A DNA stretch of 64,000 nt, from NCBI GenBank assembly GCA_020630975.1, contig JAHDID010000013.1, forward strand, positions 62,001-126,000. The letters run 5' to 3'. This DNA comes from Verrucomicrobiota bacterium. GTDB taxonomy: Bacteria; Verrucomicrobiota; Verrucomicrobiia; Verrucomicrobiales; DEV007. The notes below the pieces were generated by a model that was not told the origin of the DNA, ran no database searches, and worked only from the letters and a program-made list of their open reading frames with translations. Positions 31,364-38,675 of the stretch are shown piece by piece; the stretch's first letter is position 1; the number at the start of each line of letters is the position of its first letter. The position numbers and the translations under genes were made by a program.

Positions 31364-32050
31364 CTATTCGACCATTGGTCGAAATTCTGTGACAGCACCG
31401 TTGAAGGGGTTCACTTGCAGGCAAATATAATTTCCCTCCGGCTCTGCACCTTCTCGATCTGCATTTTCACCCTCGGTGAGGGTAATGTACCAAGTATCAT
31501 GCCTTCGTGACAACGCATCCGTTGATTTGTTAGCTAAATCCGTTGATCCATCAGGCCTAAAACGAAAAGACACATATTCAGTATTCTCAATACCTCCCCC
31601 GAAACCAGTTGGAGCAGGAGCTTTATCTACTCTAGGAGACGAGAAACCATGAAGGCGATCGTCTCGACTAACGTTAACCGGAATCAATAAAGTCGACCAC
31701 TTTGAACTGATTACCGTTGGTTCACGCACTCGAAAAAAAGTGGAAATCGGAGCAAGAACCCCATCTGGATCATATTGATACAACTGATAACCACCAAAAC
31801 CGCCCCCTTCTCGAAGGCCGTCGTTTTCCCAACGAAAAAACCTCACTTCAACATCGGCATTCTTTGATACCGCAATCTGTTGGGCGAAAGTTAACTGATT
31901 TCGCAGCAAAGCCCCTTCACTCGTTAAAGTCCGTGACCGCATCAACGAGAAAACATTAGGCGTAGCAAAAGCCAAAATGATACCGACAACCGTCAACACC
32001 AGAAGCATCTCTACTAAAGAGAAGCCTCCATTTTTCTTTCTTCTCTTCAT
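31364..32050 (-). CDS. Verru_Chthon cassette protein D (GspH/FimT-like pseudopilin)
   Basis: Prepilin motif GGFSLVEMLLVLTVVGIILAFATP. Confidence 0.85.
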   Translation of the reverse strand: MKRRKKNGGFSLVEMLLVLTVVGIILAFATPNVFSLMRSRTLTSEGALLRNQLTFAQQIAVSKNADVEVRFFRWENDGLREGGGFGGYQLYQYDPDGVLAPISTFFRVREPTVISSKWSTLLIPVNVSRDDRLHGFSSPRVDKAPAPTGFGGGIENTEYVSFRFRPDGSTDLANKSTDALSRRHDTWYITLTEGENADREGAEPEGNYICLQVNPFNGAVTEFRPMVE

Positions 32051-32060
32051 ACTAAAACAA

Positions 32061-36800: not shown

Positions 36801-38675
36801 TAAAGTGTAAAACCTTCCAAACCCTTTTGTATCGTGGCCATCTTCTTTAATCCTAATAGGGGTAACTTGCCCATGCCCCTTATGAATCCGACTCTGACCT
36901 ATCACATCGATATCATTAGGATCCTGATTCTTTGACGAGTTATTCAAAGCTCGTGGATTCGTAAAAGTCCGATGGGTATTGCTGTTTTTTTTGTCAAAAG
37001 CCCTCTCCCAATCTTCCCCAAAAAGACTATCATCATGAAGGTTCACCGATCGGATATAGTCGAACATCATAGTAGCGAGATGATAATGCTCTTCGCGTGG
37101 ATATTTCTCGGCAAACGAGTGCCCAACACCTGGTATTTTTTTGTTCATCATATCGATGATATACCGATATAGCTGGCGATTTCTTTCGATGTTCTGATAA
37201 TCATGCTCATCATCATCCGCATTTTCTCGCTGGAAGTAGTAAGCATATCCAGCAGGTGAAATATCGCCCGACGAGTCCGTCCCACCAGATTTACCTCCAG
37301 CAGAAGCACAAAAAGCAATCAGTTTGTCAAACTTCGTCCTCATCTCGGCACCCCGCGCCGACTTCTCCCGCCCACTAATAGGCCAAGTCGCGATTCGAGG
37401 AGTATTAAAAAGTGTCGTCTCTGGAGCTCTAGAGGTAGTGGTAAGAAAAAATCTAGCCCTCTCCAACTGCTCGCGCATCACTTCAAACCGTGCCGGCCTC
37501 CCGTTTGATTGAGGAAATGGATTTGTATCGCGATTGGGTTTCATCACGAATTCGTCCACAGACGGAAACAAAGGGCGATTATCAGGAATCAGGCCATTAC
37601 GCTCCTTTCGATTTCTAATATCAATTTTACGGGTTCCAGACTCTGACCCACCGCCCACAACTTTCGGGATTGATTCGAAAATCATCTCCATCGCATCCTT
37701 GTTCTGAGCCAACTTAATAACCCCAGGAGCCAATACGGGAGCCAAACTCGTCGTAGCAGGGTGCCCAGGGTAGCGTTGCCACTCATTTTGCGCAGGCTGG
37801 AACCTCCCCATATCCATGTCAGTCTCACCACCCGTTCTTGGCGTATCCCAAGCCAGTCCACCCGCATGAACATTCAGGTTGAGCTTTGTGGTCTCGTCGT
37901 CCGCCCAAAAAGCAAACCGTCCCACAATTGGATTTGATTGGGTAGGCACACTACCTTCTTGGAACGGCTCAAAACGCCCCCCTTCGAGGTAACCTAATGC
38001 ACCATTTGCTAGTTGATAAATCCACCTAACCGGCATTGATAAGTGTTCAACTTTTGAAACCTCTTCAACCTTTTTAGCTAGCTCCCCCCCCTTTACAGTA
38101 TAACTAGAATCGTAGTTGTAATCAAACCCCTCGATTCCCTTTTGCTTTCCGTTTATGGCTTGACGCCACCTAGGCTCATACTTCGCCTTTGGGTCAACAA
38201 TCGGGTAGTACACCTTTGTCCCCCGAATCACCGGTGTATTCAAATCGACAAACTCATCATTATTCCAACCGTCTTCAAACTCTTCGAAATCCTTGCTAGC
38301 AAAGTCTTTGTCGTTGCTTTTGTGATCGACCATTAAATCATCTGAGTACAATTTATACCCAGTGAGTTTTCCGTTATTTGTCCAAGTCCTAATAGCACCA
38401 GGCTGTGATGCCCAAGCTTTATCCGGATCAGACGTCGCCTTCCTGATCTGCGCGATCACCAAATTCACCGACTGCTCAGCCACTTGCTGTGCCTGAAGAC
38501 CATCGGAATACGTGTTTGACGCCTCACTCTCGCTCACCGCCATGTCGAAAAACGCCATGATCATGACCGTCGCTAGTGCGATGACGGCTACTACCATGAC
38601 TAGGGCGACGCCCTTTTCGTTTTTCCGCCTCTTAGCGCCGGATAATTTCGTTTTGACCTGTTTTGAGCTTTTCAT
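33801..38675 (-). CDS. Verru_Chthon cassette protein A (giant GspK/PilX-like protein, 1624 aa)
   Basis: N-term EKGVALVMVVAVIALATVMIMAFFDMAVSESEA; very large first gene of the A-B-C-D order. Confidence 0.85.
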   Translation of the reverse strand: MKSSKQVKTKLSGAKRRKNEKGVALVMVVAVIALATVMIMAFFDMAVSESEASNTYSDGLQAQQVAEQSVNLVIAQIRKATSDPDKAWASQPGAIRTWTNNGKLTGYKLYSDDLMVDHKSNDKDFASKDFEEFEDGWNNDEFVDLNTPVIRGTKVYYPIVDPKAKYEPRWRQAINGKQKGIEGFDYNYDSSYTVKGGELAKKVEEVSKVEHLSMPVRWIYQLANGALGYLEGGRFEPFQEGSVPTQSNPIVGRFAFWADDETTKLNLNVHAGGLAWDTPRTGGETDMDMGRFQPAQNEWQRYPGHPATTSLAPVLAPGVIKLAQNKDAMEMIFESIPKVVGGGSESGTRKIDIRNRKERNGLIPDNRPLFPSVDEFVMKPNRDTNPFPQSNGRPARFEVMREQLERARFFLTTTSRAPETTLFNTPRIATWPISGREKSARGAEMRTKFDKLIAFCASAGGKSGGTDSSGDISPAGYAYYFQRENADDDEHDYQNIERNRQLYRYIIDMMNKKIPGVGHSFAEKYPREEHYHLATMMFDYIRSVNLHDDSLFGEDWERAFDKKNSNTHRTFTNPRALNNSSKNQDPNDIDVIGQSRIHKGHGQVTPIRIKEDGHDTKGFGRFYTLKDVGVHVICVADGGGKIDQLGGEAAGPRNPGFSVYGQNGVVEDDAERQHSNFPPMPKSASYSNYDSYPNWLKEWLRDYEARNGGRPWQSTEIADQVEMAFEPENWNWNLIYNRTDQNGKYIRIDPEDDDVSEVMQDARNGLYPSTLGCFQGSMPSRVGHLNLKKEHYMRVAHNQKLVQAGILFNLFCPSMGWVPINPDMSIEINLVSEAKGGFAFSTLGPGSDPNDNTVPFDQLSSDPKYNGYHEIVSFPSTVNYTWFTNDRQSAWHHRHAGGVLPFTYVMGDDRKTSREFGPEIKTSKRTLYPTGRYSPLDPEYYEGGVPRNGKYLYLTSPFRVKRNVKGDPNEPAEMAFTGGSIIFEIKAHGDSDGGKSGTNGNYDPEELSAPQTTGATDVQRISFNLPSFRVHPPDLVVGRTGYINEFNEKTSYPVSPMAMWSLGIRGAAGVAPGEEYSPEMHTGRMYRLSSANGAILAGERKKNGDWVGDVVKSMGVLHGDLRLAAASRRNAGKLFGEHYLYDEKEEKMAHDMSATPGWRYAGAITEPELGLLPGINYRGKKPAGPIGDPKKYSGDKVNRFGDFDNGMGLLVDGPYINKPDEGNSHSLFNRTELRRPTGQYDFRRDFGDYPYFVRDYVHEAGSPSYFSPNRIMSGPGMFGSLPARPEHKEGAWATLLFRPDSSSGHYGGPTADESLMVKAGIGDGSEIEGEDPADHYLLDMFWMPVVEPYAISEPLSTAGKVNLNYQMLPFRHVKRDTALRGIFRSELVVQVPTPGYKPDNPDDNKVSRNRADPSFYSVNYKHNAGRGRGWHWRDRPRDGELQGKRLRGVIVEEDTLEQFEKLFDEGEVFKSASQICEMHLVPQQYAERLGITSQKFMINSYVPDVEDMENGRFWEDHALTGDNSRERPYGNIYNRVTTKSNTFKVHFWGQVLKQGRGGPGRDYSRWDSDLDTVVSGYRGSSIVERYIDPNDPNLPDYADTIGGRTASIDEFYRFRVVNPTRFAP

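Follow-up and report, generated by a model that had tools for sequence, protein, structure and literature searches.

A Verrucomicrobiota operon of four prepilin-like genes that probably encodes a K-I-J-H-type tip set with a giant GspK-class subunit

The 64,000-nucleotide stretch of DNA analyzed here (the window) carries four adjacent genes of the Verru_Chthon families A to D, which are names without a function, and raises the question of what such a cassette does in a Verrucomicrobiota cell. The original prediction for this locus held that no function had been assigned to these families, and our literature search agrees, having retrieved no paper that names Verru_Chthon or TIGR02600. It further proposed that four adjacent minus-strand genes with class III prepilin-like motifs represent a complete GspK/I/J/H minor pseudopilin set. 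The open reading frames (ORFs) lie where the prediction placed them, and the cassette and its surroundings contain the following features:

33801-38675, minus strand: gene A, ORF of 1624 aa; giant GspK-like minor (pseudo)pilin, Verru_Chthon_A, TIGR02600
33128-33781, minus strand: gene B, ORF of 217 aa; GspI/PilV-like minor (pseudo)pilin, TIGR02598
32061-33131, minus strand: gene C, ORF of 356 aa; GspJ/PilW-like minor (pseudo)pilin, TIGR02599
31364-32050, minus strand: gene D, ORF of 228 aa; GspH/FimU-like minor (pseudo)pilin, TIGR02596
38852..38876, minus strand: terminator-like hairpin between aroA and A; pattern match only
31226..31247, both strands: terminator-like hairpin between D and actA/actB; pattern match only

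We confirmed that A-B-C-D form a tight four-gene operon at 31364-38675 on the minus strand, with a 19-bp gap between A and B, a 4-bp overlap of B and C, and a 10-bp gap between C and D. The hairpins on both sides of the cassette, which are pattern matches only, fit a transcription unit of its own. All four Verru_Chthon models were matched by adjacent genes in the order A-B-C-D, each above its curated NCBIfam cut-off: A with TIGR02600 (7e-257, 855.8 bits, cut-off 332.3), B with TIGR02598 (1.2e-18, 67.7 bits, cut-off 51.4), C with TIGR02599 (1.7e-80, 271 bits, cut-off 256.5), and D with TIGR02596 (6.6e-30, 104.6 bits, cut-off 70). The identity of the cassette is thus beyond chance. The N-terminal motifs also read as predicted, with G|FSLVE in B, G|FSIVE in C and G|FSLVE in D, while A, for which cleavage is predicted after Gly22, has G|VALVM and lacks the Glu at position 5 (Glu5). 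Among homologues in which the motif was found, Glu5 is present in none of the 95 A proteins and in all of the B (59/59), C (67/67) and D (65/65) proteins, the last three counts being slightly flattered by a motif finder that rewards Glu5. Both GspK and the type IV pilus protein PilX lack this residue (PMC7541494).

The assignment of the four proteins to the K, I, J and H classes was assessed by comparison with families of known function. The best such families correspond one to one, GspK for A (3e-4, 20.4 bits), GspI for B (1e-5, 26 bits), GspJ for C (1e-6, 28.7 bits) and GspH for D (1.7e-8, 34.7 bits), and every score lies below the curated equivalog cut-off (130, 44.35, 64.85 and 80, respectively), which counts against the K-I-J-H reading. 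Profile comparison with proteins of the E. coli K-12 gsp locus placed C closest to GspJ (88.5%), matched D to GspG and GspH at about 96% each with a GspH alignment twice as long, and was ambiguous for B (I or J), whose class is also supported by the distant clusters, where the B-like gene stands between the D-like and the C-like gene. The PDB sequence search with B, C and D profiles returned mostly pilin N-terminal helices. An AlphaFold2 model of the window C protein (pLDDT 87.4, pTM 0.83) resembles the GspJ-type fold: its top eleven Foldseek matches were EpsJ/GspJ chains (3CFI, 2RET, 3CI0_J) and the T. thermophilus pilin-like protein TTHA1219 (5G23, 5G24), the best being EpsJ 3cfi_B (prob 0.99, E 3.4e-3). 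The proposed GspK/I/J/H set is supported by the one-to-one family matches, the GspJ-like model of C and, as described below, the H-I-J-K gene order of relatives.

With 1624 aa against about 300 aa for canonical GspK, protein A is about five times the usual size. A profile of 18 A proteins matched E. coli K-12 GspK at 45%, the GspK encoded on contig C93 of the same genome at 87% and that on contig C1 at 4%, and gave less than 7% with each single GspG, GspH, GspI or GspJ protein. Against a 23-sequence canonical GspK profile the match rose to 95.5-95.9%, over only some 81-82 N-terminal columns. When profiles of the canonical GspK and A ectodomains were compared directly, no match was detected (about 3%, with 0.1% for the reversed control), so that intermediates are needed to tie the two together. 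We used K proteins of 700-840 aa (Kshort) and 840-1130 aa (Kmid). The canonical GspK ectodomain matched Kshort at 75%, Kshort matched Kmid at 100% over 699 columns, and the Kmid ectodomain matched that of A at 94.1% over 188 C-terminal columns and at 92.7% over a conserved IVGRxAFWxDDExxKxNxN stretch, with reversed controls of at most 0.2% along the ectodomain chain. This chain of intermediates supports A as a GspK-class protein, matching GspK and no other pseudopilin. The ectodomain landmarks in gene A are as follows:

37872..37913, minus strand: conserved motif IVGRxAFWxDDExxKxNxN, A residues ~255-268, within FAFWADDETTKLNLN; near-invariant columns, shared by A and other giant GspK proteins
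34584..34601, minus strand: conserved motif GKVNLN, A residues 1359-1364, in the C-terminal region to which other giant GspK proteins align
35316..36758, minus strand: least conserved middle of the ectodomain, A residues ~640-1120, 1.6-2.0 bits column information

The blocks flanking residues ~640-1120 carry 2.1-3.2 bits of column information, and we regard the variable middle as a candidate ligand- or cargo-facing region. A short A homologue from locus L204 (1198-residue fragment, 87-row alignment) was modeled by AlphaFold2 with pLDDT 84.6 and pTM 0.90. Foldseek of this model against the PDB gave no significant match, with 3CI0 chain K at rank 22 (E 2.5), and a PDB sequence search with the A profile returned nothing at E up to 10; in the model, the A ectodomain has an overall fold for which Foldseek found no solved relative.

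Giant-GspK cassettes occur widely in the phylum, far beyond Verrucomicrobium and Chthoniobacter. Our phylum search found the strict A family in 10 of 390 genomes and GspK-like N-terminal matches, weaker ones included, in 210 of the 390 in all, mostly in large ORFs. A scan of named genomes confirmed 380 A relatives, and the best 80 of these 380 are almost all titled Verrucomicrobiota. More than 4 kb of downstream sequence was available for 76 of the 94 distinct A proteins; B, C and D are all present downstream at 52 of these 76 loci, at least two of them at 65, and none at six. Two loci, L133 and L170, have a tandem A-A-B-C-D arrangement. The cassette is flanked by aroA/tyrA on one side and by the alternative complex III genes actA/actB on the other, and one or both flanks recur at 21 loci, the window included. 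We considered the alternative complex III neighborhood as a functional link and read it as vertical inheritance instead. A single contig of genome G240 has both a gspE-gspE-gspF block (C32:17780-22047) and an A gene (C32:37353-42485), separated by about 15 kb.

More distant relatives were found as 25 clusters from other Verrucomicrobiota families, in which at least two of the D-, B- and C-like genes stand beside a giant K gene encoding 704-1591 aa. Their order is mostly D..-B-C-K, that is, (G)-H-I-J-K, and at loci L117 and L237 the NCBIfam models for D, B, C and A agree position by position with the H, I, J and K places. This conserved order, together with the strong linkage of A to B, C and D, argues against the explanation that A has merely borrowed a prepilin-type anchor and works outside any fibre tip, as a large protein of the cell surface or periplasm. 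Such an anchor-only role would suit the lone paralogue on contig C139, the many distant giant GspK-like genes that stand alone and the ectodomain without a solved relative; we nevertheless consider it quite improbable. That second A paralogue of the window's genome (C139:11355-15989), an orphan with neither B, C nor D next to it, has 1544 aa, shares about 44% identity with window A and adjoins a divergent 824-aa DUF5060 protein. On contig C44 of the same genome, ORFs of 1223 and 1083 aa lie side by side (L061:110-3781 and 3795-7046); both start with GFSLVE, Glu5 included, and by these starts are putative giant pseudopilins of another type. At L110, L113, L122 and L127, a giant GspK-like gene, stand-alone or clustered, precedes a gene of about 230-250 aa, whose product, with its signal-peptide-like start, may be a conserved partner.

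A tip set requires a machine, which the prediction placed elsewhere in the genome. Contig C88, on which the cassette lies, had no match to PF00437 or PF00263, bearing out the claim that no major pilin, ATPase or secretin is nearby. Prepilin motifs other than those of B, C and D were not found on this contig, and core genes (F, G) in a G-H-I-J-K order are absent from the window and present in some relatives of other families. A prepilin peptidase and assembly systems were sought in the genome and found, all on other contigs. They comprise one prepilin peptidase locus (C56), several good secretins on contigs other than the cassette's, ATPase/platform sets on C77 (E, E, F, G), C99 (E, F, G, H), C79, C94 and C39, a gspF-G-H-I-J-K operon on C93 (GspK 5e-23), and a gspI-J-K-...-D locus on C1 (GspD 1e-86). 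Because C93 and C1 have their own canonical-size GspK sets, the cassette would be an additional tip set, and nothing forces the use of this cassette, given the other minor sets in the genome. The C77 block has no H-I-J-K genes of its own and is for that reason the best candidate partner machine; most plausibly, then, the cassette would be served by the C77 pilB/gspE-gspE-gspF-gspG block. GspF genes accompany four giant-K loci (L117, L124, L222 and L228, the first three among the 25 distant clusters), and their products score 449-491 bits against the C77 GspF and at most 225 bits against the other GspF proteins of the window's genome, which suggests that platforms of the C77 type are able to serve giant-K tips. 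In a nine-row GspF tree most forks stayed open, and one firm group joined the proteins of C93 and C99. C77-type E-E-F genes also occur in genomes of the same order in which no A or GspK was detected over threshold. Co-occurrence of the C77 machine and A was examined as evidence of pairing and set aside as uninformative, the machine also being present in genomes without strict A. About 7 kb from the gspE-gspE-gspF-gspG block, a short ORF (C77:30686-31117) has a weak secretin-domain match.

In its N-terminal signals, Glu5 pattern, best known-function matches, GspJ-like predicted C fold and the H-I-J-K gene order of relatives, the cassette is like the type II secretion system (T2SS) set GspK-GspI-GspJ-GspH (ETEC 3CI0; P. 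aeruginosa XcpX-V-W-U), from which it differs in that core genes are not nearby, scores fall under the equivalog cut-offs and the A ectodomain lacks a solved relative. Since the same protein classes serve type IV pili (T4P) and the T2SS, the fibre may be either a type IV pilus or a T2SS pseudopilus. The proteins might accordingly form an alternative T4P tip of the FimU-PilV-PilW-PilX type, which would act in attachment or surface sensing and whose last subunit would include a fused PilY1-like adhesin. B-like proteins of the distant clusters match PilV best, and the genome has shorter, PilT-sized PF00437 members. The precedent comes from M. xanthus, where each of three minor-pilin clusters includes a large PilY1, and where PilY1 and the minor pilins prime and tip the pilus (PMC7541494). 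The likeness extends to minor pilins with a very large tip protein and to several clusters per genome; in M. xanthus, however, the large protein, PilY1, stands apart from the pilins and carries a type I signal peptide, whereas here the large part is fused to a K/X-class pilin. The window proteins score higher against GspH/I/J/K than against T4P minor pilins, and a Pfam search of A at E up to 1 gave no match, PilX and PilY1 included; a pilus tip of this kind is conceivable, and we would put it short of an even chance.

Gene neighborhoods offer some indication of what a giant tip might bind. Of the 88 cassettes for which upstream sequence was available, 12 are immediately preceded by a same-strand gene for a PEP-CTERM protein of 828-3281 aa; PATR repeats occur in several of these proteins, and the scanned ones yielded no barrel domain. 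The upstream giant PEP-CTERM protein is a candidate cargo or tip partner. In the distant clusters, a neighbor of at least 1100 aa is present in 9 of the 25, and five of these neighbors share homology with one another and none with the PEP-CTERM proteins compared. This homologous family, of 1311-2260 aa, adjoins giant-K clusters in five genomes (L117, L124, L222, L234 and L235), and its L117 and L124 members had no Pfam match.

Such neighbors, and the description of the quaternary tip of T2SS minor pseudopilins as recognizing substrates (PMC6211770), favor a cargo-specific T2SS tip in which giant A would recruit very large, repeat-rich proteins in the periplasm and push them through the secretin, no autotransporter barrel having been detected in the scanned PATR-bearing proteins upstream. 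Against this, the PEP-CTERM cases come almost entirely from Verrucomicrobiaceae-type contigs, a single family, and are not independent. The window cassette has no giant PEP-CTERM neighbor, and the exosortase model TIGR02602 had no match in its genome; on these grounds we discarded PEP-CTERM proteins as a general partner there. We hold the cargo-specific tip only tentatively, as something less than an even prospect. A role in binding cargo or a partner accords with the neighborhoods no less well than the surface adhesin that had been suggested.

Taken together, A-B-C-D is probably a K-I-J-H-type minor (pseudo)pilin tip set that caps a fibre of a shared machine, with the A ectodomain binding a large partner; complex formation, the choice of machine and the binding of cargo or ligand are what we infer from the sequences and models above. 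Prepilin peptidase would cleave each protein after Gly (Ala in some homologues), and the Glu5-containing proteins B (I-like), C (J-like) and D (H-like) would pack beneath A, which is expected at the end of the fibre because it lacks Glu5. The complex would prime assembly and then cap the pilus or pseudopilus, with ATPase, platform and major pilin supplied by the shared machine encoded elsewhere, most plausibly the C77 block. Priming and capping, with the A ectodomain at the tip, are proposed by analogy with the known systems. The ectodomain, of about 1500 residues with a variable middle, would thereby offer a large binding surface at the tip and might bind one large secreted or surface partner.

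With this proposal, four families that were named and had no function acquire a concrete role that can be tested, and they are tied here to K-I-J-H and to related giant-K cassettes across the phylum. It also suggests that the subunit capping a secretion or pilus fibre can become about five times larger with the other tip classes and their order kept. One Verrucomicrobiota isolate has 67 PulG-like pseudopilins, and its 17 genes induced by alginate include one for a pseudopilin, which agrees with the presence of many exchangeable proteins of the pilin class in the phylum (PMC13274419). A broader and rather unlikely extension is that Verrucomicrobiota have a distinct class of exchangeable cassettes with giant tips, each built on a GspK enlarged into a partly variable recognition module and each dedicated to the export or display of a single giant surface protein (of the PEP-CTERM/PATR or another family) through a common platform. 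Crossing of the outer membrane was proposed as a step for large exosortase-sorted proteins in 2006 (PMC1569441), and the giant PEP-CTERM linkage in some relatives of the cassette may provide a way to ask how it occurs. If the extension is true, giant-tip cassettes would, in some members of the phylum, take such proteins across the outer membrane.
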